The notes under the pieces are model-generated. The model was not told the origin of the DNA. It ran no database searches and was given only the letters and a program-made list of their open reading frames with translations. A stretch of DNA of 39,506 bases, taken from contig JAGLDK010000059.1 of the NCBI GenBank assembly GCA_023145615.1, positions 1 through 39,506 of the forward strand, written 5' to 3'. Below are positions 1 to 28,184 of this stretch, piece after piece. The stretch comes from Ichthyobacteriaceae bacterium. GTDB taxonomy: Bacteria > Bacteroidota > Bacteroidia > Flavobacteriales > JADGDT01. The translations under genes were made by a program, and so were the position numbers. How positions within the stretch are numbered: the first letter of the stretch is position 1; each line of letters opens with the position of its first letter.

Positions 1-3000
1 TAAAGTATCACTTTTATATTTATAATTTCTCTCTTTAATTTCGTTATTACTTTTTATTTTAAATAAATTATCCAAAAACTCTTTAAACGTATCGAAATTT
101 GTGTAGTACGAAATACCGATACCTTGTGTGTAACCTTCGTTTTCGAATAAATCGGTTACTCTGTTTTGGCGCACAAATACTTTTCCTTTATACCTACCAT
201 CTTCGGTTAGGTTAAGAAGCACTTCAACATCTCCAACTATCGACGATTGACTACTTCCAACCGGCACACCAACATTTCCGTTTACTGTAACTCTATCGTT
301 AAAAAACTGACTTGATAATCCAACCTCAAGCTCGTCGGTTGATTGTATTTGACTAACATTTGTAGTAGTGGAGTAGTTAACATTAACATCAAATTTATCG
401 CTTATACTTGATGCCATATTTCCTATTTGATTTGCTAAAAGTTCATAAGTACTACTGGCCGCACTTCCAATAACTGCAATATCGCTATTTGCCGATGCAA
501 ATGAATTTAAGGTAATAAGCATAATAAATTGTCTACCTCTTTCATCTGGATTTTCATTTAATTTAAAATTTAATTGAGATTGAATACTTGGGTCGGCATT
601 TGGTATTTTTATATCGAAATTAAGATTGGGTTGTTCTAATCCACCCGATAATTTAAGATAAAGCTCAACTAGTAATTTATGCGATTTCTGATCGGTATTA
701 TAATCTAAATACGATGCAACATCTGTTTTGGTAGGATATATAGCATCCATGTTTATTGTTGCATTAAGCGGATCGCCATTCCAACTAATAGTACCACCCG
801 GTTTTATTTTAAACTTCTTATTAATTAAATTTTGTAGTGTAAATAAATAATTTCCATTTGTTAGAGTGTAAGTTCCGTTAATTCCAAAATCTCCTTTGGT
901 ATCAATATCAATAAGTAAATCGGCATTTCCTCTACCTTTCATTACATCACCAACTTGCTCGTCAAGTACAATTTCTACTTCGGCATCTGGCGTTACTTTT
1001 AGTTTGAATTCAAGTTTCATTCCACTTCTTAAATTCGACTCTAAACCTCTTTTTTTAGCATTTGCTTTTTGTTCTAATTCTTTATTTATATACTCATTTG
1101 GAGCAGTAAAATATATAAAAGAACTTTGGTTAGCAGTTTTATTATTCGATAAAGGAATTGAAAAAACAGTACCCTTTTCTGTACGCAAATTAATATCGAA
1201 TTGTAATCTTTCGGTAGAACCTTTTAAAGTAGCATTACCCGATGCAAATACAGTACCATAAAAATCAGGATTATCTTCTTCATCGGTTTTTAATAGCAAT
1301 AACTTTTTTGCATTAATAAGTAAATCTAAATCCCAATCTATATAATTATTATTGTGTACTATGGCACCTACAATTGTACCTTTAGTTCCTTTTTCGGCAT
1401 CAATTATTGTGGTTTTAGGTATATGAATCTCGTTTTTATTAACTAATACATGAGGTACACCTTCAAAATTAAATTTCACACCTAAATAATCAATTCCCAT
1501 ACCGCCTTCGGCAATATCAATAAAGCCATCTAAATTAGGATCGGTTAAAGGTCCATTTACATTAACATCGCCACTAACAAGTCCGGCAATACCATAAAAT
1601 AAGTCGGTAGTAAAAGTATTAACAAATTTCAATCCAAACTTATTCAACTTAACATCCATGTTAATTTCAGGCTCACCAAGTAAACTTATGTTACCCGATG
1701 CATCAACCGTTTTACTATTATTTTTAACAACTGTAAAAGATGTATTATAAATTTTATGAACATCAGAATTAGCCATTTTTAAATTTACATTTCCAATATA
1801 GTCGTTATACAAGCTTAAACTATCAATATTAACATTAGCAACCGGGCGTATAATATCATTATTAATATCTACCATAACATCAGCATTAAGTACACCTTTT
1901 GCTTGCATACTAGTACTTGATGAAAGTAAATTTGCTAAATCAATATTGTTTAATTTAAAATTGTAATGATGATTATTTTTTTTCTTAAAACCATTTACCG
2001 ATAACGATTGTTTGTTATTGTAAACAATAATTGAATCGATATTTAACACCTCCGAAGCAGTATTATAAACAATCCTATTATGTTTATTTAACTTAAGTTT
2101 CCAATCGTTATTTCCAAATAATAAATCCGAATTCATAAATCCTAAAACAATATTAGAATCGTTTTCTATAGTTTGATAAAAATTAATATTGAATTTATCA
2201 TCCATCATTTTACCTCCTTCGAAACTTGAAACAGCATAAATTGAATCGGCTCTTTCTTTAATAATAACATTTAAATTATGAATAGGGTAGGTGTTGTTAT
2301 TAAAGTGCTTTACATCAAGAAAAGCTGAGTATAACTCGTTTTTATTATCAAACAAAAACGACATAGAATCAATAATATTATCCTGATAAGAAAATCCAGG
2401 AGACTCAAATTTCATCTTTAAATGATTTGTTTCGGAATTTATACTTCCATCTAAACTTGTACCATATTTAATGTTAAGTTCGGGTAAGAATATATCTATG
2501 ATTTTATTTTTTAATTCAAAATCGAATTCTAAATACTGATTATCTCTACTTATTTTTTTGTATTCATCATTTTTATAAACCTTCTCTACAATAGCATTTT
2601 TAAACATTTTAGGAAGATCAATAAATTTAAAATTGCCTTTCATATACCCATCTATAATATCGGTAGATCTAATTTCTATTAATTTTTCTTCATTATTTTT
2701 TTGAGATTTAATTTTTAGTTTTTCAAAATAATAAAGATTAATATTGTTATGATAAGTAAAGTTTAAAAGAGAAAGGCTACCAATTAAATTATCGTAATCA
2801 TTTCCTTTAATATCCATTTTTATATGCCCTTCTAAAAAAGAAATACTATCTCTAACAAACAAGTTAGTAGCACTTAAATTGGCTTTATCAATGTATAAAT
2901 TAAAATTGTATTCCGGAATATTAGATCTTGCATCTGCAAGTCCATCAAACGAAACTCTAAGATTTTCATCGTCGATATTTAATAAACCTTTAAAAAGTTT

Positions 3001-4458
3001 TTCTCTTAAATCTCCTTCAATACTGATATTACTATACTTGTAATTTTTAAAATAAAAGTCAGAAATATTTCCTTTTATATACGAGTCTAAAGTTTCAAGA
3101 GTAAAACCCTGACCATCGATATAAACATTAGCATTAGCAGTTTTAAATAATTTTGGATTAATTAATTTACCCAAATTAAGATTGTCTAATTTTAAATTAC
3201 CCATGTAATTTGCATGCTTAATAGAGTCCTGAAAATTTAATTGAATTTCAGCATCAACATTTCCAACATCGGTTAAAAGATTAAAAATAGATTTATAATC
3301 TCCTTGTTCTAAAATTGCATTTCCGCTTAAATTAATAATACCTAATTTTTTAAGAGAAACAGGTATATTATTTTTGTATTTCTTAGGTAGCAGGTTATAT
3401 GAATCGTTATATGAAGTAGAAAATTTATCAAGTTTAATATAATATCTAAAATCGGTATCCGAAAACATATTTGTAATTCTACCATTTGTAGTAATTACAG
3501 TATTTTCACCAGTAAAAAGGCGTAACCTTTTAATCTGTAAATCCGATAAAGTTCCTGATACTCTCAAGGAAATACTAATATCGTTATTTATAGATTTTAG
3601 ATTTGTAAAGTAGCTCAGATCTTTTAATCCAAAATGAGAATTAAAAACAGTTAAATATACACTTGTGTTTTTATAGTTTTTTATAAGATCAGAGATGCTA
3701 TTAAAACATAAATCAATGTTAGAGTTTATTTCGGAATTAGGAGTTTTAATATGTAATTCTCTCAGTGCAATTTCCGAATCGGTTAAGTTAAAATCTGCAC
3801 TAAAATCTTCAACTATAAAACCATTATCGGCAATAAAATTTAAATCTTTAATATTTAATCCAACATTATTATTGCTGATGTTTATTTTTTTTGCTGATAA
3901 GTTAATATCCGAAATATTGTGTTTAATATTTTTAAATAAATCAGCATATTTAAAATTAAGGTTGTTTATTTTAATTGATGAAGAATTAAACTCGAAAGCC
4001 GATTTGTTTTTATTTGTAGATTCAGTAGTTAACGTGTCGGTTTCTGATTGTTTAAACTTATTTAAAAATATTTCAATGTTAGTTATTGAATCGTTCTGAT
4101 ATTTTATCAAATTAAAATTACTGTTTGATAACGAAATATTATCAACATTAATTTTACCCGAAAGAACGTCAGAATTAATTAGGCTTCCACGTAATTCACC
4201 AACATAAATTAAAGTGTCGGGATAATGATCCATAACCAAAATTTCATTTAACGAAACCTTTCCTAAAATTGATAAGTCAACTGCTTTAATACTTATTTTA
4301 GTATCGTATTTTTTATAAACATACTCCGTTATGTATTTTGCCAAATAAGTTTGTACAGGTGGTAAGCTTAAAAATATAGATATAAGCACAAATATTGCTA
4401 ATATAACAAGTAGAATACGTAATATTTTTTCTCTAATTGGTTTGATATTGTTCTTTAT
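1..4458 (-). CDS. tamB: TamB-like translocation/assembly module protein, C-terminal end cut off by the window
   Basis: The minus-strand frame is open, codon by codon, from a TGA at 4494-4492 to the window edge: about 1486 codons from 4458. The N-terminus reads K/R-rich residues followed by a hydrophobic anchor (about residues 13-35: KILRILLVILAIFVLISIFL) and then SLPPVQTYLAKYITEY, typical of Bacteroidota TamB/AsmA-like proteins. A long beta-rich body follows, and the last visible residues (VFVRQNRVTDLFENEGYTQG, then GISYYTNFDTFKEFLDNLF) match the usual TamB end, so only a short tail is probably missing. TamB proteins span the periplasm from an inner-membrane anchor and are thought to help lipid transport or outer-membrane protein assembly. 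Divergence from tsaD is a common arrangement in this phylum. No ATG/GTG/TTG exists before the anchor: 4458 is an ATA, chosen because it gives MKNNIKPIREKILRILLV. ATC (4446) and ATT (4437) are alternatives. The first in-frame ATG (4233) would remove the anchor. Confidence 0.85.
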   Translation of the reverse strand, partial: MKNNIKPIREKILRILLVILAIFVLISIFLSLPPVQTYLAKYITEYVYKKYDTKISIKAVDLSILGKVSLNEILVMDHYPDTLIYVGELRGSLINSDVLSGKINVDNISLSNSNFNLIKYQNDSITNIEIFLNKFKQSETDTLTTESTNKNKSAFEFNSSSIKINNLNFKYADLFKNIKHNISDINLSAKKINISNNNVGLNIKDLNFIADNGFIVEDFSADFNLTDSEIALRELHIKTPNSEINSNIDLCFNSISDLIKNYKNTSVYLTVFNSHFGLKDLSYFTNLKSINNDISISLRVSGTLSDLQIKRLRLFTGENTVITTNGRITNMFSDTDFRYYIKLDKFSTSYNDSYNLLPKKYKNNIPVSLKKLGIINLSGNAILEQGDYKSIFNLLTDVGNVDAEIQLNFQDSIKHANYMGNLKLDNLNLGKLINPKLFKTANANVYIDGQGFTLETLDSYIKGNISDFYFKNYKYSNISIEGDLREKLFKGLLNIDDENLRVSFDGLADARSNIPEYNFNLYIDKANLSATNLFVRDSISFLEGHIKMDIKGNDYDNLIGSLSLLNFTYHNNINLYYFEKLKIKSQKNNEEKLIEIRSTDIIDGYMKGNFKFIDLPKMFKNAIVEKVYKNDEYKKISRDNQYLEFDFELKNKIIDIFLPELNIKYGTSLDGSINSETNHLKMKFESPGFSYQDNIIDSMSFLFDNKNELYSAFLDVKHFNNNTYPIHNLNVIIKERADSIYAVSSFEGGKMMDDKFNINFYQTIENDSNIVLGFMNSDLLFGNNDWKLKLNKHNRIVYNTASEVLNIDSIIVYNNKQSLSVNGFKKKNNHHYNFKLNNIDLANLLSSSTSMQAKGVLNADVMVDINNDIIRPVANVNIDSLSLYNDYIGNVNLKMANSDVHKIYNTSFTVVKNNSKTVDASGNISLLGEPEINMDVKLNKFGLKFVNTFTTDLFYGIAGLVSGDVNVNGPLTDPNLDGFIDIAEGGMGIDYLGVKFNFEGVPHVLVNKNEIHIPKTTIIDAEKGTKGTIVGAIVHNNNYIDWDLDLLINAKKLLLLKTDEEDNPDFYGTVFASGNATLKGSTERLQFDINLRTEKGTVFSIPLSNNKTANQSSFIYFTAPNEYINKELEQKANAKKRGLESNLRSGMKLEFKLKVTPDAEVEIVLDEQVGDVMKGRGNADLLIDIDTKGDFGINGTYTLTNGNYLFTLQNLINKKFKIKPGGTISWNGDPLNATINMDAIYPTKTDVASYLDYNTDQKSHKLLVELYLKLSGGLEQPNLNFDIKIPNADPSIQSQLNFKLNENPDERGRQFIMLITLNSFASANSDIAVIGSAASSTYELLANQIGNMASSISDKFDVNVNYSTTTNVSQIQSTDELEVGLSSQFFNDRVTVNGNVGVPVGSSQSSIVGDVEVLLNLTEDGRYKGKVFVRQNRVTDLFENEGYTQGIGISYYTNFDTFKEFLDNLFKIKSNNEIKERNYKYKSDTL

Positions 4459-4637: not shown

Positions 4638-5657
4638 ATGGAAAAAGATATATATATACTTGGTATAGAATCGTCGTGTGATGATACAAGTGCTTCGGTA
4701 ATTAAAAATGGAAAAATTTTATCAAACATAGTTTCCACACAAAAGGTTCATGAAGAGTATGGTGGTGTGGTTCCCGAATTAGCATCTCGTGCTCATCAGC
4801 AAAGTATTATTCCGGTGGTTGATCAGGCAATTAAAAAATCTGGAATAGAATTATCTCAACTAAATGCGGTGGCGTTTACAAGTGGACCAGGATTAATGGG
4901 TTCGTTATTAGTGGGTACATCTTTTGCCAAGTCGTTATCAATGTCGTTAAATATTCCGCTTATAGAAGTTAACCATATGCAGGGGCATATTTTGGCAAAT
5001 TTTATACAAGATGGAGATATGACAAGTCCTAACTTTCCGTTTTTAACATTGGTTATTTCGGGTGGTCATACACAAATAGTAAAAGTAAATAGCCATTTTA
5101 ATATGGAGATTTTAGGAGAAACTATTGATGATGCAGCCGGAGAAGCTTTTGATAAATCGGGTAAAATTATTGGATTGCCATATCCCGGAGGTCCGTTAAT
5201 TGATAAATATGCTAAAGAAGGAAATCCAAAAGCATTTAAATTTACTAAGCCTCGTGTTGATGGTTATAATTTTAGTTTTAGTGGGCTAAAAACAAATATC
5301 CTGTACTTTGTACAGAAACAGGTTAAAGAAAATCCAGATTTTGTTAAAGAAAATTTACACGATTTATGTGCTTCAATACAGTTTACAATAGTTGAAGTTT
5401 TAATGGATAAACTTAAAAAAGCAGTAAAAGAAACTGGAATTACAGAAGTAGCAATGGCAGGTGGAGTATCTGCAAATTCCGAAATTAGAGCAAGGTTTTT
5501 TAAAGCCGAAAAAGATTGGAATTGGACAGCTCATGTTCCTAAATTTGAATTTACTACCGATAATGCAGCAATGATTGCAATGGTTGGTTATTTAAAATAT
5601 AAGGTAGAAGATTTTAGTGATATTAGTGTAACTGCAAAAGCCCGATTTAGTTTGTAA
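4638..5657 (+). CDS. tsaD: tRNA N6-adenosine threonylcarbamoyltransferase TsaD
   Basis: 339 residues, the normal family length. TsaD transfers the threonylcarbamoyl group from TC-AMP to A37 of ANN-decoding tRNAs (t6A), working with TsaB and TsaE in the cytoplasm. Visible landmarks: ESSCDDTS at residues 11-18, the metal-binding HMQGH at 113-117 (H113, H117), the SGGHTQ nucleotide-binding loop near 146-151, AGEAFDK in the substrate region, and AGGVSANSEIR towards the C-terminus. All are intact. The ATG at 4638 gives the canonical start MEKDIYILGIESSCDDT. It is transcribed away from tamB, with 179 bp between the two starts, and about 100 bp separate it from the next gene. Partners TsaB/TsaE are not in the window. 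Confidence 0.97.
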   Translation: MEKDIYILGIESSCDDTSASVIKNGKILSNIVSTQKVHEEYGGVVPELASRAHQQSIIPVVDQAIKKSGIELSQLNAVAFTSGPGLMGSLLVGTSFAKSLSMSLNIPLIEVNHMQGHILANFIQDGDMTSPNFPFLTLVISGGHTQIVKVNSHFNMEILGETIDDAAGEAFDKSGKIIGLPYPGGPLIDKYAKEGNPKAFKFTKPRVDGYNFSFSGLKTNILYFVQKQVKENPDFVKENLHDLCASIQFTIVEVLMDKLKKAVKETGITEVAMAGGVSANSEIRARFFKAEKDWNWTAHVPKFEFTTDNAAMIAMVGYLKYKVEDFSDISVTAKARFSL

Positions 5658-14528: not shown

Positions 14529-15737
14529 ATGAAAGTACTACATACATCAGATTTACACCTAGGACATAGATTTCATGAACAGATACAGACAGAAGATCAA
14601 AAGCAATTTTTGACTTGGTTATTAAACTACATCAACCTAAACAATATAGATATACTATTAATTGCTGGCGATATTTTTGATACTGGATATCCATCATCTA
14701 TAAGTATGACAATGTATTATGATTTTTTGGTTGATTTATCTAATTCTAAATGTAAGCATGTTGTAATTGCAGGTGGTAATCATGACGCTCCGGGTACACT
14801 AAACGCACCAAAAGAATTACTAAGTGCAATTAATGTTGATGTTGTAGGTAAGGCTACCGAAGATGTAAAAGATGAGATTTTTGAATATAATGTTAATAAC
14901 GAATCTGTAATTATAGCATCTGTTCCGTATTTAAGAGATCAAGATATACGACGCGCATTAGCTGGAGAGACCTTTGATGAGGTAAACGATAGATATAAGT
15001 TTGCTTTGATTAATCATTATAATGAGGTAGCCGAATGTTGTAATGAAATAAATAAAGATAAAGTACCTGTTATTGCTTTAGGACATTTATTTGCTATAGG
15101 AGGAGACACATCGAACAGTGAGCAAACTATTTATGTAGGAGGTACTGGAGATATAGGAGCTAATGATTTTTCGGAAGTTTTTAATTATGTTGCTTTAGGT
15201 CATTTACATCGTCCGCAAAAAGTAGGAGGCAAGAAACATATTAGATACTCGGGAGCTCCGAATGTTTTAAGCTTTAGTGAGGTTGGTTATGATAAAAAAG
15301 TAGTTGAGCTAGAGATTAATGATAATTTAATAGATACAATTAACGAAGTAACAGTTCCATTGTTCAGAATTATAAAACGCATAAAAGGAACTGTAGATGA
15401 AAGTATTTTATTGCTTAAAGAAATTGAAATAAATGAAGGCGATTTAACTCCGTGGATTGAAGTTGTTATTGATAATTTGGTAGAAAAAAACATAGATACT
15501 ACCGAAATATATAAGGTAGCAGAAGAATTAGGTATTAAGGTTTTAAAAATTACGTTGAGTAATTATGAATTAACAGAAGGTATTGAAGGTATACTTGATA
15601 ATAATGTTGATTTAAAAGAGATTACTCCTAATGAGATTTTTAAACTTAAATGCGATGAGAAAGGAATTATACTAGATGAAAATCCTGATTTATTAGACGC
15701 ATTTAACGAGGCTTTACAAATAGCTAAAAACGCATAA
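14529..15737 (+). CDS. sbcD: Exonuclease subunit SbcD (Mre11-type nuclease)
   Basis: 402 residues, normal for SbcD. The metallophosphatase motifs appear in order: MKVLHTSDLHLGH (D8, H10), LLIAGDIFDTG (D48), VIAGGNHDAPGT (N84, H85), VPVIALGHLFAIGG, and VALGHLHRPQ with the last metal-binding histidines. The C-terminal part contains the capping domain and the segment that docks to SbcC. SbcD is the endo/exonuclease of the SbcCD complex, which cleaves DNA hairpins and protein-blocked ends in the cytoplasm. sbcC starts 29 bases downstream, so the two are cotranscribed. The preceding terminator (14382-14421) shows that the promoter lies within the roughly 107 bp before the ATG, where TATATTAG near 14494 loosely resembles a -7 element. 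Confidence 0.97.
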   Translation: MKVLHTSDLHLGHRFHEQIQTEDQKQFLTWLLNYINLNNIDILLIAGDIFDTGYPSSISMTMYYDFLVDLSNSKCKHVVIAGGNHDAPGTLNAPKELLSAINVDVVGKATEDVKDEIFEYNVNNESVIIASVPYLRDQDIRRALAGETFDEVNDRYKFALINHYNEVAECCNEINKDKVPVIALGHLFAIGGDTSNSEQTIYVGGTGDIGANDFSEVFNYVALGHLHRPQKVGGKKHIRYSGAPNVLSFSEVGYDKKVVELEINDNLIDTINEVTVPLFRIIKRIKGTVDESILLLKEIEINEGDLTPWIEVVIDNLVEKNIDTTEIYKVAEELGIKVLKITLSNYELTEGIEGILDNNVDLKEITPNEIFKLKCDEKGIILDENPDLLDAFNEALQIAKNA

Positions 15738-15766
15738 TACTAAACCAATTTTATCAAAAAAATATA

Positions 15767-18700
15767 ATGAAAATAATTAAACTAGAATTTAAAAATATAA
15801 ATTCATTAAAATCGGATACTCCAATTGTAATTGATTTTGAAAGTGATAAGTTTAAAAATGTTGGTTTATACGCAATTACAGGAAGTACAGGTGCCGGAAA
15901 AACAACAATTTTAGATGCTATAACAATTGCTTTATATAGAAAGGTTCCAAGATTTACAACTTCAGGAAAGGCAAAATTATGGGATGTGGTAAGTTATGGT
16001 GCTTATGATGCAATGTCGATAGTTACTTTCGAAAATGATGGCGAAATATATGAAGCTTCATGGAGTGTTAGAATTAAAAAAGATAATGGAGAGAATTTAA
16101 AAAACATTAAGGATAAAATAAGTGTTAAAAATTTAAGCACGGAAAAAATATTAGCTAATAAATCATCGGACTGCTTAAGGGCTATTGAAAATATTACACA
16201 TTTAAATTATAATCAATTTTTACGTTCGGTAATGTTGGCTCAAGGAGAGTTTGCATCGTTTTTAACTGCAAAACCATCTGATAAAGGAAGTCTGTTAGAA
16301 CAAATAACCGGGGAAGATATTTACTTGAAAATTGGAGATGTTATAAATAATTGTAAAACAGAAGAGAAAAAAAAGTTAGATCTTTTAGAAACAAAAATTA
16401 ATACCGATGATGTATTAAGTAATGAGGTAAGAACAGAACTAGAAACAGATTTATTAAATATAAATAAAGAGTTAAACTTTTTAAGTACTGAACAAAAAAA
16501 GCTTGAAGATATTGTTAGATGGTTTATTGATTTTGAAAAAATTAAACTTGATAAAAAAACAATTTCTGAAAGTTTAAATAATCTAGAAAATCAGAAAAAA
16601 GAAAACGAAAGTATTTACATAGCAATTGACAAAGATAAAAATGCACAACCTTTTGTTGAGGTTTTAAATAATAGTACCCGAATTAAAAAATCGATATTAA
16701 CTAAGGATATTGAAAAGAATAATTTAGTAAAACGTATTTCGGAATTAAATAAGACTATAGAAGAGCAAAAAATTACATTAGATAAATGTAATAGCAGTTA
16801 TACCCAATTTGAAAAAGAATATGAATTATGGGCTGATAAATTAAGAAAGGTTTCGATTATTGATACCAATATAATTCAGAAAACAAATGACAAAGAAGAT
16901 GCAATAACAAAAATAAAAGATTCTGAAAGCTATATAAAGGAAATAACTACATCAATAAAAAATGTAAATGCAAAATTGCTAACAAATGAAGAGGATATAC
17001 TAACTACAGATAGTTATATTAATAACAATAAACAAATACCCGAAGTTGAAAAGCTAATAAATAATTGGATTGCAAAATTAACTGAACGTAAAACTTTAAG
17101 TACTGGTATTAAAAATAGTATTACTGATTTTAATCAAAAAAATAGCAATTTAGAAAAAAGCAGAAAAGATTATAAAATAAATTCTGAAAAATTAAAAGAA
17201 GAAAGAAAGGAACATAAAGATTATTACGATAAAGAGGTAGCGTACAATAATCAGCTTTCTGTATTAAACATTGATGAATTTAATATAGAAAGAGATAAGC
17301 TTACTGCACAACTTAATACTTGGGATGATGTAAATAGATTGGCGAATACTTATATTGAAACCAATGATAAAATAAAAATACACAATAAAAAACTTAAGGG
17401 TTTTGAAATACAGAATATTGAAGATGAAAAGAGTGTAGAAGATTTAAAGGTTAAAATTAAATATGAAAATAATCTTTTAATTATTTCTGAAGAAAATCTG
17501 GAATTAAAAAATAAGATAATTCGTTTTGATGATGAACGTAAGTTATTAGAAAAGGGAGAGCCTTGTTTGCTTTGTGGATCTAAAGCACATCCGTTAGTAG
17601 ATGAGTATAAAGATATAAATACTAACAAAAACAGTTTAGAGGTAAAGAAACTTAAAGAAAATTTAAAACAATTAGAATCGGATAAAAATAAATCGGAAAT
17701 AAAAGTAGCAACAGCTAAAAATAATATTGAAAATACTAAAAATGACATAGCTGTTTATACAGAAACACTCAATGAAATTCAAGATAAATTTAATACCCAA
17801 AAACTGAGTTGTTTAATTACTGATTATGATTTTATTGTAAATACTAAAGCTGAAATTAATAATTTTTTATTAGAAATAAATGCTAAAATTTTAGATAGAA
17901 ACAAAATTCAAAAACAAAAAGATCTTAATTATACATATTTAAATAAGCACAGTAAAATTATTGAAAATTTAGAAAAAGACGAATCTACTTTAAAAGAACG
18001 AGGGAAGGGATTAGCACAAGATGTTAATGAATTAACTATTCTGAAAAATAATAAAACTTCGGAAATTGAAACATTAGAAAATGTTATTAATGATGAGATT
18101 TCGAAATATGATTTTGAATTACCTAAAGTTGATGAAACCGAAAGTTTTACACAAAATATACAACGCAAAATTTTAGATTATAACAATCAAGAACTAAAAA
18201 TAATTACTTTAAAAAATGATAAAGAGTTACTAATTCAAGAAAACACAAGCTACAAAAGTAAGTTACATGAAAAGGAGGGTTATTTGAAAGAATTAACTGA
18301 TGCAGAAAAAAATATTTCAAATAAATTAATTGAATTTAAAGAAGCTAGAAAAGGGTATTTGCCTAATGACGAAAAGGTTGAGGTTAAACAACAATATTTA
18401 AATGAAGAAAAAAGTGATTTAAAACAAAAACTTGATGATATAAATAAAACACAAAATTCATCGGAAAAAGATATTGCAACAGCTAAGAATAATAATGAGC
18501 GCTTAGTTGAAGAATTGAAAAATGAAAACTCTGAATTTGAAGAGTTAGAAAGTGAATTTAATAAACTGCTTGAAAATAGTATTTTTAAAAATAAAGATGA
18601 GGTTGAAAATTCTGTTTTATCAGAAAATATAAGAACCGAATATTTAGCTATTGAAAAAAAGATTGAAAATAACTTGATAGAAATTAATAGTCAGAAAGTT

Positions 18701-19423
18701 AAAAATAATAAACTATTTGAAAATGCTACAAAACTTAAGGATTTTGAAATTGAGAAAGAAAAAGCAGTAGAAAATTTACAAGAAATAAAAGAAAAATCAG
18801 CAACTGAAAATAAAAATAGTGGTGTTGTTTCTCAGAAATTAAAAAAAGATGATGAGGTAAAAACACGAAACAAGAGTTTTATGTCTGAAATTGATACTCA
18901 GAAAAAAGCACTAAAAAGATGGACAGATTTAATTAAGATTTTAGGAGGATCGAAAGACGCTTTTAATACTTATGTACAGCGTTTAACTTTAAGTAATTTA
19001 ATAAATTTAGCTAATGTGCATTTAGATAAATTGAATAAAAGATATTCGTTATTACTACCTAAAGAATATGCTGAAAAAGAGGAATTAACATTTTTGCTAG
19101 TTGATCATTTTCAAACAAATCAACAGAGAAATGTAGAAACATCAAGTGGGGGAGAAAAATTTATTATAAGTTTGGCGTTGGCTTTGGGATTATCGGATTT
19201 GGCAAGTAAAAACGTAAAAGTTGATTCATTATTTATTGATGAAGGTTTCGGAACACTTGATAATAATACTTTAGATATTGTTATTTCTACTTTAGAAACT
19301 TTACAGTCTCAAGGAAAAATGATTGGCGTTATATCTCATGTTGAAAATTTGAAACAACGTATTTCTACACAAATACAGGTAAATAAAAAGAGTAATGGAG
19401 TAAGCGAAGTGGTTATAGCATAA
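15767..19423 (+). CDS. sbcC: Exonuclease subunit SbcC (Rad50-type SMC ATPase)
   Basis: 1218 residues. The N-terminal ATPase half has Walker A TGSTGAGKTTILDAI (K45) and MLAQGEFASFL (Q-loop region). About 900 residues of K/E/N-rich coiled coil follow on both sides of the zinc hook CLLC, where C600 and C603 sit almost exactly mid-protein (PCLLCGSKAHP). The C-terminal half has the ABC signature SSGGEKFIISLALALGLSD (from S1126) and Walker B SLFIDEGFGTLD (D1158, E1159). These are the complete elements of a Rad50-like dimer that tethers and gates SbcD. The frame is uninterrupted. Start MKIIKLEFKNINS is canonical. The coiled coil is long, at the upper end of SbcC sizes. Confidence 0.97.
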   Translation: MKIIKLEFKNINSLKSDTPIVIDFESDKFKNVGLYAITGSTGAGKTTILDAITIALYRKVPRFTTSGKAKLWDVVSYGAYDAMSIVTFENDGEIYEASWSVRIKKDNGENLKNIKDKISVKNLSTEKILANKSSDCLRAIENITHLNYNQFLRSVMLAQGEFASFLTAKPSDKGSLLEQITGEDIYLKIGDVINNCKTEEKKKLDLLETKINTDDVLSNEVRTELETDLLNINKELNFLSTEQKKLEDIVRWFIDFEKIKLDKKTISESLNNLENQKKENESIYIAIDKDKNAQPFVEVLNNSTRIKKSILTKDIEKNNLVKRISELNKTIEEQKITLDKCNSSYTQFEKEYELWADKLRKVSIIDTNIIQKTNDKEDAITKIKDSESYIKEITTSIKNVNAKLLTNEEDILTTDSYINNNKQIPEVEKLINNWIAKLTERKTLSTGIKNSITDFNQKNSNLEKSRKDYKINSEKLKEERKEHKDYYDKEVAYNNQLSVLNIDEFNIERDKLTAQLNTWDDVNRLANTYIETNDKIKIHNKKLKGFEIQNIEDEKSVEDLKVKIKYENNLLIISEENLELKNKIIRFDDERKLLEKGEPCLLCGSKAHPLVDEYKDINTNKNSLEVKKLKENLKQLESDKNKSEIKVATAKNNIENTKNDIAVYTETLNEIQDKFNTQKLSCLITDYDFIVNTKAEINNFLLEINAKILDRNKIQKQKDLNYTYLNKHSKIIENLEKDESTLKERGKGLAQDVNELTILKNNKTSEIETLENVINDEISKYDFELPKVDETESFTQNIQRKILDYNNQELKIITLKNDKELLIQENTSYKSKLHEKEGYLKELTDAEKNISNKLIEFKEARKGYLPNDEKVEVKQQYLNEEKSDLKQKLDDINKTQNSSEKDIATAKNNNERLVEELKNENSEFEELESEFNKLLENSIFKNKDEVENSVLSENIRTEYLAIEKKIENNLIEINSQKVKNNKLFENATKLKDFEIEKEKAVENLQEIKEKSATENKNSGVVSQKLKKDDEVKTRNKSFMSEIDTQKKALKRWTDLIKILGGSKDAFNTYVQRLTLSNLINLANVHLDKLNKRYSLLLPKEYAEKEELTFLLVDHFQTNQQRNVETSSGGEKFIISLALALGLSDLASKNVKVDSLFIDEGFGTLDNNTLDIVISTLETLQSQGKMIGVISHVENLKQRISTQIQVNKKSNGVSEVVIA

Positions 19424-19479: not shown

Positions 19480-20394
19480 ATGAAAAACATAATTATTGCA
19501 TCACTTATTTCGGCAACTATATTAACCGGATGTGATGCTCAGTTTAATAAAAAATCGGTAAAAACAAATGTTACAAATTCTGAGTTAGATTCATTTATAA
19601 AATCGGCAGAAAAAGACACTAAAATAAAAGAGGAAAGAAATAAAGAGAAATCGGGTAAAAAATCTGCTGTAAAAAACAGTGGTAATAAAAGTAATACCGT
19701 TGGTAAAACTTCGGGTAAATTAAATATTGCAACTACAAATAATGGTAAAATTATTAAGCACCAATATTATACACTTTCGTATAACGAAAAACATGAACAA
19801 GCGGAGTGGGTGGCTTATAAATTAACATCTAAAAGTATTACGGGAGGAATAAAACGTAAAGATGATTTCAGACCAGATCCTTTGGTTTCAACAAGCTCGG
19901 CAAGTTTAAATGATTATAGAAAATCGGGATACGATAGAGGTCATTTAGCTCCGGCAGGAAGTATGAAAGCAAATAAATTGGCTATGAGCGAAAGTTTTTT
20001 CATGAGTAATATGAGCCCTCAAAAACCATCGTTTAACCGTGGTATTTGGAAACGTTTAGAAACTAAGGTGCGTTATTGGGTGGCTACAAACGATTCGGTT
20101 TTTGTAGTAACAGGTCCTATTTTAGATAATCCATTAGGTTATATTGGTAGAAATAAAGTGTCAATTCCGCGTGCATATTATAAAACAATTTTGGGTTATA
20201 AAAACGGAGAGGCTAAAGGATTAGCATTTATAATGCCAAATGAAAAATCTGGAAAATCGTTATATTCTTTTAAAACTTCAATTGATGAGGTTGAAAAAAT
20301 TACAGGTATTGATTTTTACTACAATCTTGATGATGCTACAGAAAACAGAGTGGAAGCAAATAATGATGTAAAAAAATGGTTTTTGAAAAAGTAG
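19480..20394 (+). CDS. Secreted DNA/RNA non-specific endonuclease, lipoprotein (NUC/EndA family)
   Basis: 304 residues with a type II signal peptide: MKNIIIASLISATILTGC, lipobox LTGC with C18 as the lipidated residue. A lysine-rich, low-complexity linker (about residues 35-85) leads to the beta-beta-alpha-metal nuclease domain (about 95-300). The active site is YDRGHLAPAGSM (D152, R153, G154 and general base H155), with FFMSNMSPQ and the metal-binding N186 and E194 in FNRGIWKRLE. The family degrades single- and double-stranded DNA and RNA without sequence preference. As a surface or periplasmic lipoprotein it would scavenge nucleotides or degrade extracellular DNA. It starts only 57 bases after sbcC with no visible terminator, so read-through from sbcDC is possible. 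Confidence 0.95.
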   Translation: MKNIIIASLISATILTGCDAQFNKKSVKTNVTNSELDSFIKSAEKDTKIKEERNKEKSGKKSAVKNSGNKSNTVGKTSGKLNIATTNNGKIIKHQYYTLSYNEKHEQAEWVAYKLTSKSITGGIKRKDDFRPDPLVSTSSASLNDYRKSGYDRGHLAPAGSMKANKLAMSESFFMSNMSPQKPSFNRGIWKRLETKVRYWVATNDSVFVVTGPILDNPLGYIGRNKVSIPRAYYKTILGYKNGEAKGLAFIMPNEKSGKSLYSFKTSIDEVEKITGIDFYYNLDDATENRVEANNDVKKWFLKK

Positions 20395-20906: not shown

Positions 20907-21692
20907 TTGAATTATAAATTAAATACTAAGTTAGTAGCTATATTTAGTATATCAACAATCTTAGTTATAGCATTAATATTTATTGCATACAAAAATACTG
21001 ATAAAATAAATTATTACTATAATAAATTGGCTACCAGAGTTTTAACTGGAAATGATATTTATAAAAGAAGTGATATATCTAAATATGAAATTCATGGTAT
21101 TGATATTTCTCATTATCAAGGTTTAATAGACTGGAAAAAAGTTAATCATCCGGACGTAACAAAAAAGATAAATTTTATTTTTATAAGAGCTACAATGGGG
21201 CTTAAAAAAGATAAATTATTTAGTTATAATTGGGGAAAATCTACAAAGCATAATTTTACACGCGGGGCATATCATTATTATTGGTCTAACTTAAATTCAA
21301 CAATTCAGGCAAATAATTTTATTAAGAATGTTGAGTTAAAAAAAGGTGATTTACCTCCTGTTTTAGATGTTGAAAAATTGCCTAAAACCCAAACGAGAAA
21401 GAATTGGAAAAGAGGAATTAAAAATTGGATTAGCATTATTGAAAAACATTATGGTATAAAACCCATAATATATACTGGCGATACTTTTTATAAAGATAAT
21501 TTAGAAAGTGACGATTATTTTAAAGATTATCCGCGTTTATGGATAGCAAATTATAATAAAGTTAAACAGCCACGTAGTAAATGGCATTTTTGGCAATACA
21601 CCGATAAAATTAAAATTGAAGGTATAAAAAGTTATGTTGATGCCAATGTTTTTAAAGGCGGACACAAAGTTTTTGAAGATTTAATTATGTAA
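20907..21692 (+). CDS. Glycoside hydrolase family 25 lysozyme, membrane-anchored, TTG start
   Basis: 261 residues. An N-terminal anchor (about residues 9-28, LVAIFSISTILVIALIFIAY) places the GH25 domain (about 60-258) outside the cytoplasmic membrane. Family marks: IHGIDISHYQGLIDW with D66, then FIFIRATMG, GAYHYYW, PPVLDVEKLP carrying the acidic pair D154 and E156, IIYTGDTFY and HFWQYTDK. GH25 enzymes are muramidases cutting the MurNAc-GlcNAc bond of peptidoglycan by the Asp/Glu mechanism. The only workable start is TTG at 20907, because the first in-frame ATG falls inside the domain. It follows the small unknown gene by 32 bases. Uses could be wall remodelling or attack on other bacteria, and the sequence does not decide. 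Confidence 0.93.
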   Translation: MNYKLNTKLVAIFSISTILVIALIFIAYKNTDKINYYYNKLATRVLTGNDIYKRSDISKYEIHGIDISHYQGLIDWKKVNHPDVTKKINFIFIRATMGLKKDKLFSYNWGKSTKHNFTRGAYHYYWSNLNSTIQANNFIKNVELKKGDLPPVLDVEKLPKTQTRKNWKRGIKNWISIIEKHYGIKPIIYTGDTFYKDNLESDDYFKDYPRLWIANYNKVKQPRSKWHFWQYTDKIKIEGIKSYVDANVFKGGHKVFEDLIM

Positions 21693-21937: not shown

Positions 21938-22696
21938 ATGAGAAGAAAAATTGTTGCAGGAAACTGGAAATTAAATCTTGATATTAACCAAGGTTTAGAA
22001 TTGGTAAAAGAATTAGCTAAAGAGGTTGCTGAAAAGAACCCAGTTGCAGAAGTAGTAGTTACTCCTTCGTTTGTAAACTTAGCTGGTATTGTAGCTGAAT
22101 TAAAAGATTCGAAAATTGAGGTTGCTGCTCAAAACGTTAACGAAAACAAAAACGGAGCTTTTACAGGTGAAGTTGCTGCAAATATGTTAACTGCTATTGG
22201 AGTTGAAAAAGTAATTTTAGGACACTCTGAGCGTAGAGCTATTTACGGAGAAGACGATGCTTTACTTGCTAAGAAAGTAGATGCTGCTTTCGAAAACAAC
22301 ATGGAAGTAATTTTCTGTATTGGTGAGCAACTTGAAGAAAGAAAAGAAAACCGTCATTTTGATGTTGTTTCTGAACAAATTGAAAAAGGTCTTTTCCACT
22401 TAGAGGCAAAAGCTTTTGACAAAATTGTTTTAGCATACGAGCCAGTTTGGGCTATTGGTACAGGTGAAACTGCATCTCCAGAGCAAGCTCAGGAAATGCA
22501 CGCACACATACGTAAAGTAATTGATACTAAGTACGGAGTAGAAGTTGCATCTAAACTTCCTATTCTTTACGGAGGTAGTGTAAAACCAGCTAACGCTAAA
22601 GAAATTTTCTCGAAAGAGGATGTTGATGGTGGACTAATTGGTGGTGCTGCTTTAAAAGTTGAAGACTTTATGGGTATTGTTACTGCTTTTAACTAG
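21938..22696 (+). CDS. tpiA: Triosephosphate isomerase
   Basis: 252 residues, full length for TIM. It interconverts dihydroxyacetone phosphate and glyceraldehyde 3-phosphate in glycolysis and gluconeogenesis. Catalytic residues are all present: K11 in AGNWKLN, H96 in ILGHSERR, E168 in LAYEPVWAIGTG. The flexible loop is AIGTGETAS, and the phosphate-binding ends LYGGSVKP and GGLIGGAAL are intact. Codon use is visibly more biased (GCT, ACT, GTT, AAC, TTC) than in neighbouring genes, which fits high expression. It is monocistronic, with its own terminator at 22724-22748 and about 206 bp of AT-rich DNA upstream, including TATATATTTTG about 30 bases before the ATG as a possible promoter element. 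Confidence 0.98.
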   Translation: MRRKIVAGNWKLNLDINQGLELVKELAKEVAEKNPVAEVVVTPSFVNLAGIVAELKDSKIEVAAQNVNENKNGAFTGEVAANMLTAIGVEKVILGHSERRAIYGEDDALLAKKVDAAFENNMEVIFCIGEQLEERKENRHFDVVSEQIEKGLFHLEAKAFDKIVLAYEPVWAIGTGETASPEQAQEMHAHIRKVIDTKYGVEVASKLPILYGGSVKPANAKEIFSKEDVDGGLIGGAALKVEDFMGIVTAFN

Positions 22697-22816: not shown

Positions 22817-23647
22817 ATGGAATATATAGAATATAATTTTGTAGTTAAACCTATTGAGCCTTGGCGTGATATTTTAGTAGCCGAACTTGGTTCAGTTGGT
22901 TTCGAAAGTTTTGTTGAAACTGAGAATGGAGTAGATGGTTTTATTCAGGAAGAATTATTTATTGATGATGATTTTAACAACATGAACATATTTAGTAATG
23001 ATATGTGTGAGGTTACTTTTAAAAGTAGCAATGTTGAGCCTAAAAATTGGAACGAAGAATGGGAAAAGAATTTTTCGCCAATTATAGTTGGTGATAATTG
23101 TGTTATTAGAGCTCCGTTTCATGAAAAAACAAATGTTGAATTTGAAATAATTATTGAGCCAAAAATGTCGTTCGGTACCGGACACCATGAAACTACACAT
23201 TTAATTACAGAATATATTTTAGGCATGGATATGACCAATAAAGTGGTTATGGATATGGGATGCGGAACCGGAATACTTGCAATACTAGCAGGTTTAAAAG
23301 GATCGAAAGAAATTGATGCTGTTGATATTGACGAATGGGCTTACGAAAATACCGTTGAGAATGCTCAACGCAATAATGTTGATTTTATAAAAGTATATAA
23401 AGGCGATGCCAGTTTTTTAAACGAAACACCAAAATACGATTTATTTATAGCCAACATAAACCGAAATATATTAACCAACGATATGGATAAATATGTTAAA
23501 ACATTAAAAACTAATGGTAACATATTATTTAGTGGTTTTTACGAATCGGATGTTGATATAATAGTAAACGAAGCAAAAAAACACAACTTAACCTTAGTTG
23601 AAAAGAAAACAAAAAATTCGTGGGCTGCACTTAAATTTAAAAAATAA
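22817..23647 (+). CDS. prmA: Ribosomal protein L11 methyltransferase
   Basis: 276 residues. PrmA trimethylates lysines and the N-terminus of ribosomal protein L11 using S-adenosylmethionine. The N-terminal L11-recognition domain (about residues 1-85, including EPKNWNEEWEKNFSPI) leads into the Rossmann methyltransferase domain. That domain has the PrmA-specific motif MSFGTGHHETTHL (119-127 core), the SAM motif I VMDMGCGTGILAILA (146-152 core), the acidic D in AVDIDEWAYENT and the FIANINRNIL motif. Start at ATG 22817 gives MEYIEYNFVVKP, a usual beginning. Neighbours: tpiA with its terminator upstream, and a 175-bp gap before the large secreted protein. Confidence 0.96.
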   Translation: MEYIEYNFVVKPIEPWRDILVAELGSVGFESFVETENGVDGFIQEELFIDDDFNNMNIFSNDMCEVTFKSSNVEPKNWNEEWEKNFSPIIVGDNCVIRAPFHEKTNVEFEIIIEPKMSFGTGHHETTHLITEYILGMDMTNKVVMDMGCGTGILAILAGLKGSKEIDAVDIDEWAYENTVENAQRNNVDFIKVYKGDASFLNETPKYDLFIANINRNILTNDMDKYVKTLKTNGNILFSGFYESDVDIIVNEAKKHNLTLVEKKTKNSWAALKFKK

Positions 23648-23822: not shown

Positions 23823-26800
23823 ATGAAAAACATCTTATTAGTATTACTATTTATAACCTTATCGAACTTTGGCTTTTCGCAAAGTAAAAATAAGTTTTCA
23901 AGAGATATTGAAAAGTTCGATTCTGAACTAATTAGCTTTTTAAAAACTAGAGGTGATAAAGGTAAATCTGTAGCAAAAGATTTTTTAGAAAACTTCGATT
24001 CATTTAACGAAAGTGAAAAACAATTAATAATTGCAAACTTAAATTCGTTTTATAAGTACCGAATAATATCATTAAATTATTATTCCGACTTTTTAAATTC
24101 GGTATATATGTTGGATTCTGTAAAAACTAATTCAGGTCAGGGTTTAGATAAATGGTTGAGTTTATATAATAAGTATGTTGAAGATAAAGATGTAACCCGA
24201 AAAAATAAAGAAAAATTTATATCAACAAACTATAATGTACTTTCGGGCGGTAATTTAAATCCTAAATCAAAAGTAAACTGGAATGTAGATTCTAAGCTTA
24301 CATTAAATTTAACCGATCAAATTAAATATTCATTTTACAATTCGAAGTTAAGTTGTGGAAAATCAAACGACAGTTTATACTTAAATAATGTAGATGCTAG
24401 TTTTTATCCTGAAACAAATTTAATAAAAGTTGAAAAAGCAAAAGTATATTGGGATTCAAACAGATTTTCAAAAGATTCGTTATATGTTTTAGCTACTAAT
24501 TTCGATATAAATTCTTTAGAAGATAAATATAAAGCCGATTCTGTTTTTTTTACTACCAAGTATTTCATTAACGAAACCATAATGGGTAAGGTAGAGGGCA
24601 AAATTGAATCTGTAATAAATAAAAAGAAGAAATTTCCATTATTTGTAAGTTACGATAGGCAAATGCTTTTCGAAAATTTAGTACAAGGCGTAAATTATAA
24701 TGGTGGAATTATGGTACGTGGAAATATGTTTGTAGGAATAGGAAGTAAAGATCAACGTGCAGAAATGACATTTAAATCAAATAATACAAACTCACCTATT
24801 TTAATTTCATCTAGCAAAATATTATTTACACCTAAAGCTTTTTTCGCTCAAAAATGTGGAATTGATATTCCTGTTAAAGAATATTCAATATCGCATCCTG
24901 AAGTAAATGTTAAATATAATATAAAAGACAGCAAATTAACTGCAAAAAAAGGAACCTCAAATTTAGCTAAATTATCATACTATAATTCGTTTAGTTATCT
25001 TGATATGGATATTGAAATATTAACGTGGCATTTAGGTGCCGATGAATTTGCATTTTCAACATCGCCTTACAATAACTTACCATATATTTCATCGAGATAT
25101 TACGAACAGGATATTTATCGTAAATTTCAAGGAATGAACTCCGTTAATCCTTTAGACAAATTACGTAATATGATAATTAGCTACGATGGAATGGATTATT
25201 ATTCTATTGAAACTGTAGCTGATTTTATGGAAATGCCAAAAAACTATGCTTTGCATTTGTTAAAAGATTTGGCAGGTTTAGGTTATGCAAAAGTTGAATA
25301 TGATTTAGATAGAGTAAGTTTTAACGAGAGATTTAATTATTTAATTGATGCTAGTAGAGGTAATGTTGATTTTGATGTATTAGCTTTTCATTCGGAAGAA
25401 GGTAAAGCTACTAATGGAAAAATTAACTTAAATACTGGAAAACTAACTTTATTAGGTGTACATCAAATTAATGTTTCAAACGAAAAAGCAGTATCACTAT
25501 TTCCTCAAGATAGCGTGTCAATTACCAAAAACTTAGACTTTAAATTTGATGGAATTATTAGAGTTAAAGATTATGAATTTCATGGTACCGATTATAGTTT
25601 TAACTATGATGACTATAAAATAGACATGAATGGTAACCAACGTATGGAATTTTATACTCGACGAATAGATAGAAACACTCAAAAAACACTGGTTTATAAG
25701 GTATTTAACCCAATTGACTCAATACGTGGGCAATTGTTAATTGATGTGCCAACAAATAAATCGGGTAAAATTAAAAACCACCAATATCCTATATTTAATA
25801 ACACACGAGAAGCTTATGTTTTTTATGATAGAAGTGAAATTAAAGACTCGGTATATGGAAGAGATGATTTATATGTTAAGTTAAATCCATTTGAGCTAGA
25901 TTCGTTAAACACAGTATCGTCTGACGATATTGCACTTTCGGGAATGGTACACACAAGTGTTTTTCCTGATTTTGAATACGAATTGGCTGTACAACCCGAT
26001 TTCTCGCTTGGTTTTGTCTACGAAACTGACGATGTTGGATTATCACTTTATAATAAAGCCCAATACCGAGATGTAATTATCTTAAATATGAAAGGTTTAA
26101 ATGGATTGGGTAGAGTACGTTACCATCCATCAATTATAAATTCAGGAGATATATTATTTTATCCAGATTCTTTAATATCAATTGCCGACGAATTTGAACT
26201 TACTAAAGTTGATAACGATAAAATGAGTATTCCTAATGTTTTATCGGAAGATATAAATGTGGCATGGACTATAAATAACGATTCGATGGTTGCAACAAGC
26301 GTACAAAAACCTTTTTACATGTACGATAAAGCAATTGAATATAAAGGTGAACTTATATTAAAAAGTAATAAGTTATTAGGTAACGGTGTTGTAGATTTTG
26401 AAACTGCTGGAATAAAAAGTGATGAATTTAATTTTACATCGGATGAATTAGAATCAGAAAAACTTGACTTTGGATTAAGAGATAATAAAAAAGCTAAAGT
26501 AGAATTTGATATAAAAGGTGCGTATGGAAAAATTGATTTAACAACAAGACAGGGACATTTTTTACTTAAAGAAAAAGATGCTTCTGTTACGTTTATTGAA
26601 AATAACTACATGGCATATATTAATGATATAAAGTGGGATATTGACAATAAAGTAATTAATCTTAAAAGTACTGATAAAAGTAAAATACCATGGTTTATTT
26701 CATTAGATCCATCTCAGGATTCGTTACGATTTAGAGCAAAATCGGCAACATATAACCTTGTAACAAATGAACTTATAGTTGCTGATTTAGCAGGTATTGA

Positions 26801-28184
26801 AGTAGCAGATGCATTTGTTTATCCATCAACTCCAACCATGAGTATTACAGGAAATGGTGTGATGGAAAAATTTGATGACGCAAAATTAATAATAGGTGTT
26901 GGTAAAGGATTGTATCAGCATACATTAACTAAAGCATCGGTAAATATTACATCATCAAAAGAGTATAAAGCATCGGCAGAATACCAATACATAGATATTG
27001 ATAAAATAAAACATCCAATTATTTTAGATGATATATCTGTGGGTAAGGACAGTATATCAATAGCAAAAGGAACCATACCAGAATTAGAAAATTTTATGCT
27101 TAACCCATATTTTGGATTTAGCGGAAATGTTGAAATAACTGGTAATTCTCCATATTTAAAACTTAATGGAGAAGCCGAAATTCAGAATTATTGCGAAAGT
27201 ATAAATACAAGTAAATTTCCTATAAATGATTTTATAAATTCGGATAAGGTAATATTGAAAGTAGATAAAAATAACCCGTATTTTAAAGATATTTTTACAG
27301 GTTTTTATACTGTTGATAATGTTATACAACCAGCATTTTTAACAAGAGATAAAACTTATAATAAAACCAAATTTGCTTCAGCAACAGGTATTGTAACATT
27401 TAATGATAAAGAAGCTTGCTACGAAGTTAAAGCTGGAAAAGATTCTATTAGTGGAGTAGAACTAGATATGGTTAGTTATTATAACGATGAATGTAGAGTA
27501 AAATCGAAAGGAAATATTGTTTTTAATAGTAAGGGAAAAACAGTTTCTATAAAATCGTATGGTACTGTTGATTTTGATATGAATACCGATGAAATTAAAG
27601 CCAATTTGGTTTTGGGTATGAATTTTAAGCTAGATAGGTTAATTATGAGAACAATAACAGAACGAATTAAAATTGAACTTTCGGAAGGTGTTATTGAACA
27701 AAACTCAGAACTACAAAATTATGCTTTTTCAAGATTACAAAATAAAATAATAAATAAAACAACAGTTTCGAAGGGGGGATTTTTTAAAACAGATATTCCT
27801 GAAGAATTAGATTTTACAATTTTATTAACTGATTTAGAAATGCAATGGGATATGGAAGATGATTGTTTTGTATCGTCAGACAAAATATCAATTCATAACT
27901 TTAATGGTGTAGAATTAAAGAAAATATTTAATGGTAAAGTTGTTATTAGAAAAGGAAAAGTTGACGATGAAATAACTATATATTTTATAAATGAACGTGG
28001 TAGATATTATTACTTAAGGTATCGAAATGATGTTGTAAGCTTTTACTCTAATCAAAAAGATATAATGTCACGATTTGATGAATTATCATCTGAAAAAAGA
28101 TCATACGAAATTAACGGTGCAAAATATATGTATAAAAAAGAATCGGAAGAAGTAGTAGAAGAATTTATTGATTTTTACATGTAA
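23823..28184 (+). CDS. Very large secreted protein of unknown function
   Basis: 1453 residues. A Sec signal peptide (MKNILLVLLFITLSNFGFSQ) is followed by a helical region (about 25-150), then a very long beta-strand-rich body with alternating polar/hydrophobic residues and many N/D/K turns. At about residues 455-495 lies a compact helical segment (YYSIETVADFMEMPKNYALH, then LLKDLAGLGYAKVEYD) that reads like a winged-helix module, odd for an exported protein. There is no lipobox, no C-terminal sorting domain and no obvious barrel signature. It resembles large uncharacterised proteins that I associate with Bacteroidales, roughly 1450-1500 aa, but I cannot name a family. It stands alone between prmA and a strong terminator, with ordinary codon use and no frameshift. 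A structural or lipid-bridge role (TamB/AsmA-like shape) is speculation. Confidence 0.85.
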   Translation: MKNILLVLLFITLSNFGFSQSKNKFSRDIEKFDSELISFLKTRGDKGKSVAKDFLENFDSFNESEKQLIIANLNSFYKYRIISLNYYSDFLNSVYMLDSVKTNSGQGLDKWLSLYNKYVEDKDVTRKNKEKFISTNYNVLSGGNLNPKSKVNWNVDSKLTLNLTDQIKYSFYNSKLSCGKSNDSLYLNNVDASFYPETNLIKVEKAKVYWDSNRFSKDSLYVLATNFDINSLEDKYKADSVFFTTKYFINETIMGKVEGKIESVINKKKKFPLFVSYDRQMLFENLVQGVNYNGGIMVRGNMFVGIGSKDQRAEMTFKSNNTNSPILISSSKILFTPKAFFAQKCGIDIPVKEYSISHPEVNVKYNIKDSKLTAKKGTSNLAKLSYYNSFSYLDMDIEILTWHLGADEFAFSTSPYNNLPYISSRYYEQDIYRKFQGMNSVNPLDKLRNMIISYDGMDYYSIETVADFMEMPKNYALHLLKDLAGLGYAKVEYDLDRVSFNERFNYLIDASRGNVDFDVLAFHSEEGKATNGKINLNTGKLTLLGVHQINVSNEKAVSLFPQDSVSITKNLDFKFDGIIRVKDYEFHGTDYSFNYDDYKIDMNGNQRMEFYTRRIDRNTQKTLVYKVFNPIDSIRGQLLIDVPTNKSGKIKNHQYPIFNNTREAYVFYDRSEIKDSVYGRDDLYVKLNPFELDSLNTVSSDDIALSGMVHTSVFPDFEYELAVQPDFSLGFVYETDDVGLSLYNKAQYRDVIILNMKGLNGLGRVRYHPSIINSGDILFYPDSLISIADEFELTKVDNDKMSIPNVLSEDINVAWTINNDSMVATSVQKPFYMYDKAIEYKGELILKSNKLLGNGVVDFETAGIKSDEFNFTSDELESEKLDFGLRDNKKAKVEFDIKGAYGKIDLTTRQGHFLLKEKDASVTFIENNYMAYINDIKWDIDNKVINLKSTDKSKIPWFISLDPSQDSLRFRAKSATYNLVTNELIVADLAGIEVADAFVYPSTPTMSITGNGVMEKFDDAKLIIGVGKGLYQHTLTKASVNITSSKEYKASAEYQYIDIDKIKHPIILDDISVGKDSISIAKGTIPELENFMLNPYFGFSGNVEITGNSPYLKLNGEAEIQNYCESINTSKFPINDFINSDKVILKVDKNNPYFKDIFTGFYTVDNVIQPAFLTRDKTYNKTKFASATGIVTFNDKEACYEVKAGKDSISGVELDMVSYYNDECRVKSKGNIVFNSKGKTVSIKSYGTVDFDMNTDEIKANLVLGMNFKLDRLIMRTITERIKIELSEGVIEQNSELQNYAFSRLQNKIINKTTVSKGGFFKTDIPEELDFTILLTDLEMQWDMEDDCFVSSDKISIHNFNGVELKKIFNGKVVIRKGKVDDEITIYFINERGRYYYLRYRNDVVSFYSNQKDIMSRFDELSSEKRSYEINGAKYMYKKESEEVVEEFIDFYM

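Follow-up and report, generated by a model that had tools for sequence, protein, structure and literature searches.

The window analyzed here, 39,506 nucleotides of contig JAGLDK010000059.1 from an Ichthyobacteriaceae bacterium (assembly GCA_023145615.1; Flavobacteriales), carries a gene for a 1453-residue protein, P0001 (hereafter the giant), which is present in single copy in the source genome (genome search) and whose elements are collected in Table 1. Its open reading frame (ORF) is intact, and relatives align across its full length, with an internal stop in the match of only one of the 80 named relatives (L125). The N-terminus, MKNILLVLLFITLSNFGFSQ, reads as a signal peptide. Of the 79 family ORFs whose locus includes the 5′ end, 72 begin with a signal-like hydrophobic stretch, of which 68 have [AGS]Q close to where cleavage is expected and one has a lipobox-like motif; the tally was made with a simple, crude script and not with SignalP. 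These starts count against a cytoplasmic location, and we infer a periplasmic one. Library scans and the family script turned up neither a sorting domain of the type IX system nor a lipobox or a repeat adhesin domain, in agreement with a sequence-only reading of the window, which had described a 1453-residue exported protein lacking a lipobox and a sorting domain.

Table 1. Features of the giant and its conserved upstream neighbors (positions in the window; residues of P0001)
Feature	Position	Strand	Basis
tpiA, conserved second upstream neighbor	21938..22696	+	library matches, family loci
prmA, conserved upstream neighbor	22817..23647	+	library matches, family loci
Whole gene, 1453-residue exported protein P0001	23823..28184	+	intact ORF, ATG start
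Signal peptide, residues 1–20 (...NFGFSQ), without lipobox	23823..23882	+	sequence; family tally
Predicted N-terminal all-helical domain, residues ~28–142, six helices	23904..24248	+	AlphaFold model 21–1000
Predicted first β-strand region, residues 150–427, 23 strands; fold barely tested	24270..25103	+	model
Predicted winged-helix module, residues 428–514	25104..25364	+	model, fold comparison, segment profiles, alignment
Predicted main β body, residues 515–1030, Lpt jelly-roll-like in overlapping stretches	25365..26912	+	models, fold comparison
Predicted C-terminal region, residues 1031–1453, more strands and helices; missing in the ~1030-residue f6 versions	26913..28181	+	model 540–1453
Stretch from Cys1124 to Cys1224	27192..27494	+	member alignment

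No confident match to a characterised family emerged: searches of P0001 against Pfam, NCBIfam, and PDB sequences gave nothing reaching the cut-off, and a 23-row family alignment, used as a profile or through its members, likewise gave nothing at cut-off in the same libraries. A scan of named genomes with the single protein returned no relatives, and a pattern scan built on a ten-row alignment returned 474, of which the best 80 were kept; together with the window protein they form the 81-member set used below. No description of the family was found in the literature searched, which was largely confined to freely accessible papers. The giant is a real, well-conserved family, so far undescribed in these libraries and papers.

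The structure was predicted with AlphaFold, at high confidence, in two overlapping pieces, residues 21–1000 (79 sequences; mean predicted local distance difference test score, pLDDT, 89.5; predicted template modeling score, pTM, 0.68) and residues 540–1453 (80 sequences; mean pLDDT 88.8, pTM 0.64). The body had been read from the sequence as almost all β-strand. This description suits the models from residue 150 onward, where mostly antiparallel strands are interrupted at 428–514, but it misses the six helices at ~28–142 as well as helices near 1272–1310 and at the C-terminus. Conservation is strongest at ~552–770, within the main β body. Cys1124 and Cys1224 are present in all 81 aligned members of this order and are not kept in the other order that carries the family. 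Three genomes of one family (f6; G007, G020, and G057) encode naturally short giants of ~1030 residues that end near profile position 1026, which suggests that the C-terminal third is dispensable.

Residues 428–514 adopt, in the model, a real winged-helix fold of the Rio2/MarR-like kind, composed of helices 443–453, 462–469, and 473–485, strands 489–492 and 497–500, and a helix at 502–511. In fold comparisons the Rio2 kinase N-domain superimposes on ~428–514 with Z 10.3 (2.5 Å over 82 residues) and many MarR regulators match about the same range (Z 5.9–9.1); Foldseek gave probabilities of up to 1.00. Matches of the isolated segment to helix-turn-helix (HTH) families are weak: winged-helix chains rank first in a profile search at E values of 0.012 and 0.035, which are not significant, Pfam HTH_IclR was matched by 10 of 45 member segments (best E 0.0014) and TFIIE_alpha by 7 of 45 (best E 0.0065), and P0001 itself gave no HTH match with an E value of 1 or lower. 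The winged helix is no chance feature: all 81 aligned members have it, as do 13 of 14 others, those of the other order included; the 14th is a fragment. The sequence-only reading had placed a compact winged-helix-like module at 455–495; the fold and its separateness are upheld by the predicted structure, but the module is larger than was thought. The fold is shared with the Rio2 N-domain and with the MarR and IclR winged helices; unlike these, that of the giant is exported, is inserted in a β protein, and lacks a basic recognition helix. Across the 81 members helix 3 has a mean net charge of −0.42 and no position of conserved basic residues, and the whole segment has a mean net charge of −1.15. 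The winged helix is most likely a docking or structural module and not a DNA binder.

For the β body, the nearest fold found by comparison of the models is the Lpt jelly roll, not TamB/AsmA. With model 21–1000, LptC superimposes at 801–999 (6mit_C; Z 10.1, 2.8 Å over 138 residues) and at 861–995 (4b54_B; Z 9.7, 2.6 Å over 120 of 125), and LptA at 859–996 (2r1a_C; Z 9.1, 2.8 Å over 119). With model 540–1453, LptC matches at 540–717 (Z 10.3, 4.2 Å over 134) and 556–712 (Z 9.5, 3.4 Å over 114), LptA at 892–1028 (Z 9.6, 3.2 Å over 124), and the LptD N-domain at 743–907 (Z 9.5, 3.7 Å over 147) and 834–1011 (Z 9.9, 3.6 Å over 159). Since these matches, each over ~115–160 residues, fall in several registers, a continuous jelly roll over ~540–1030 would fit them. 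As regards a β-taco groove, the models predict a long β body, in two overlapping pieces. Strands of at least six residues that follow the winged helix are hydrophobic on one face, the observed alternation being reached by 6 of 2000 shuffles. Self-comparison with hhalign showed that 741–801 resembles 832–892 (E 1e-5, alignment numbering), with weaker, longer resemblances also present, consistent with repeated β units. Export to the periplasm is likely common to the giant and the Lpt proteins. Compared with these, the giant adds a winged helix and a helical N-domain, is nearly three times as long as the OstA frame of its own genome (512 codons), and is without sequence homology: neither PF13100 (LptA/OstA) nor PF19838 (LptD_2) matches P0001 or the 22 other alignment members.

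The distribution of the giant was examined in 60 genomes related to the source, in 296 genomes drawn across the phylum, and in 192 genomes of another order of the same class, with families coded f1–f82 (assignment of f2 to Flavobacteriaceae is a guess). Among the 60 relatives it was found in 36 with the window protein as query and in 38 with a profile; profile searches found it in 11 of the 296 and in 160 of the 192, in the last case in frames of mostly ~1560–2170 codons. Two Flavobacteriales, Thermaurantimonas aggregans and Phaeocystidibacter luteus, are among the carriers. Among the 60 relatives it was unmatched in f2, f3, f5, f10, and f16, the f16 genomes being 0.3–0.6 Mb in size, and in the other order it was unmatched in every listed f81 genome (0.7–1.9 Mb) and in part of f22. 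The giant is a near-core gene of one order and widespread in another; the simplest reading is that of an old gene, situated after prmA and passed on vertically, that some clades have lost.

The same 60 genomes (source genome included) were searched for known bridge components, with OstA_2 found in 53, LptD_2 in 54, and TamB in 42. The giant is not simply LptA or LptD, nor a replacement for OstA or LptD, because most of these genomes have distinct genes for both. It is not TamB either, as P0001 has no match to PF04357 or an AsmA domain and the TamB of the source genome is another gene, at 1–4389 (−) in the window (PF04357 match at 4–4389, E 1e-59; the frame reaches the window edge). This tamB is divergent from tsaD (4638–5657 (+)), an arrangement also seen in G001, G003, G005, and G015. 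A periplasm-spanning scaffold comparable to TamB or AsmA proteins had been raised in the sequence-only reading, and the idea gains plausibility from the likeness of the body to known β-groove proteins of the periplasm; the likeness extends to size, a strand-rich body, and a conceivable periplasm-spanning role. The specific comparison fares less well, given that the nearest fold is Lpt and that homology to TamB/AsmA is not detectable; moreover, in place of a membrane anchor, the giant appears from its sequence to have a plausibly cleavable signal peptide. The fold-match lists of both models hold no AsmA/TamB structure, which excludes nothing.

All six f8 and all five f11 genomes carry the giant, and in none of these 11 was TamB found by profile, with the window TamB as query, or beside tsaD, unlike in the controls G001, G003, G005, and G015. 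Other genes stand beside tsaD there, often ribAB-like by reading (L201–L205, L207–L211, and L213). TamB thus appears to have been lost in 11/11 f8/f11 genomes, a loss made notable by a report that places TamB and TamL in all Bacteroidota species examined and finds them essential in two, and that describes the TamB module as transporting proteins and likely lipids (PMC12045153). In an Omp85 (PF01103) search that addressed the retention of TamL in f8/f11, five of the 17 genomes searched had no Omp85 match at all, even to BamA. OstA, LptD, or Omp85 went unmatched in some fairly complete f8/f11 genomes (G022, G042, G024, G044, G052, and others), which may reflect search sensitivity. Of the 47 genomes with a completeness of 90% or more, the giant and TamB occur together in 17, the giant alone in 11, TamB alone in 16, and neither in 3. 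When the five tiny f16 genomes are excluded and G001, whose TamB is truncated by a contig end, is scored as TamB-positive, 42 genomes remain (both 18, giant only 10, TamB only 14, neither 0). In this set the chance probability of such complementarity is 0.009 when kinship is ignored and 0.46 across 13 families, the latter not significant because there are only two TamB-less families; the complementarity is only suggestive.

The gene neighborhood is also conserved. Among the loci with enough sequence (from the 80 named loci and the window), prmA directly precedes the giant in the same orientation in 67 of 74 and is itself preceded by tpiA in 57 of those 67, and the nearest downstream ORF is plsY in 17 of 68 and clpS in 10 of 68; gene names rest on likeness of reading, and those of prmA and tpiA are tied to the genes of the window. 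The window itself has a YgiQ radical-SAM gene and then xth downstream. In the other order prmA precedes the giant in several loci and plsY follows it in two. In clades without the giant, prmA is followed directly by clpS in 6/6 f2 genomes tested and in the one f3 genome, and in six f5 genomes prmA was found without an adjoining clpS. Farther upstream, the window encodes an SbcDC-type tandem pair, consisting of a metallophosphoesterase and an AAA/SbcC-like ATPase (14529–19423 (+)), and a DNA/RNA non-specific endonuclease close to a GH25 lysozyme-family protein (19480–20394 and 20907–21692 (+)).

We tentatively propose, as the likeliest of the explanations considered though one that falls a little short of being probable, that the giant is a periplasmic β-groove carrier working like an Lpt bridge. 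It would be exported by Sec and be soluble in the periplasm, where its β body would form a long antiparallel jelly roll or β-taco with an elongated groove. We would infer that this groove shields a hydrophobic cargo (a lipid, a lipoprotein, or an outer-membrane protein) between the inner and outer membranes, and that partner proteins dock onto two modules, the helical domain at the N-terminus and the inserted winged helix, the latter of which would not bind DNA. Several observations weigh against this proposal. Likeness of fold to Lpt is not function. The Lpt superpositions are local, and the whole-chain Foldseek matches, mostly LptD, have template modeling scores <0.2 and therefore carry little; the halves were folded separately, such that the models do not fix the shape or length of the whole chain. 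MORN1 repeat sheets reach Z 9.1–9.8 too, though at 5.5–6.3 Å. The strands preceding the winged helix lack one-face hydrophobicity, with 822 of 2000 shuffles reaching the observed value, and hhalign detected no sequence link to OstA, LptD, or TamB (probability <1%) with small alignments of 4, 10, and 10 rows, respectively, the TamB rows being partial (970–1002 residues). Many genomes also manage without the giant, which the profile did not find in 22 of the 60 relatives, and the recurrent neighbors are housekeeping genes, not envelope genes, and therefore say little about function.

If the cargo were proteins and not lipids, the giant could instead serve in the periplasm as a scaffold or chaperone whose clients are outer-membrane proteins or proteins secreted by the type IX system; it would offer them the edge strands of its long sheet while the winged helix and helical domain bind assembly machinery. 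The long antiparallel body of the models, the retention of the giant in f8 and f11 without detectable TamB, and the placement of the window's other giant, TamB, in a module that transports proteins and likely lipids (PMC12045153) speak for this; we nevertheless consider it rather unlikely, as the best local fold matches are lipid carriers and no linkage to TamL or BamA was found, five of the 17 genomes in the Omp85 search being without any match. Less likely again is a lineage-specific accessory of the Lpt machine, serving lipopolysaccharide or another surface glycolipid, for example as an additional piece of the bridge that connects LptC-like proteins to LptD. Among domain-sized folds the Lpt jelly rolls come closest, and domains of this type join end to end, but OstA_2 and LptD_2 are present with and without the giant, homology to either is lacking, and the recurrent neighbors include no lpt gene. 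A further alternative is a surface or structural protein, such as a matrix protein, an adhesin, or a protein related to gliding, whose β body is like Lpt only through the general similarity of long antiparallel sheets; in its favor, OspA sheets match the β body as MORN1 sheets do. We regard that explanation as improbable, considering the absence of detected sorting, lipobox, or adhesin features and the occurrence of the giant as a single-copy, syntenic gene conserved across two orders, which most adhesins are not. Hardly credible, despite a fold of the MarR/IclR type, is an exported protein that binds DNA through the winged helix, because the protein has a signal peptide, a slightly acidic helix 3, and no HTH model at cut-off.

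The β-groove carrier proposal can be extended to an undescribed class of bridge-like carriers: single-chain periplasmic β-groove proteins that have no sequence relation to Lpt or AsmA/TamB, were already present in the ancestor of two or more Bacteroidota orders, carry an obligatory winged-helix docking module, and took over the role of TamB in f8 and f11, where it was lost. We put this forward as a doubtful extension. The passage of lipids and outer-membrane proteins across the Bacteroidota periplasm is poorly known, and a giant Lpt-like groove protein that neither Pfam nor NCBIfam covers is a concrete candidate for one of the missing components. Genomes in which the giant persists but TamB goes undetected offer a direct way to test the question, and it is unusual in itself for a winged helix to be retained across an exported family. 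The giant may be a so far unrecognized connection between the inner and outer membranes of these bacteria.

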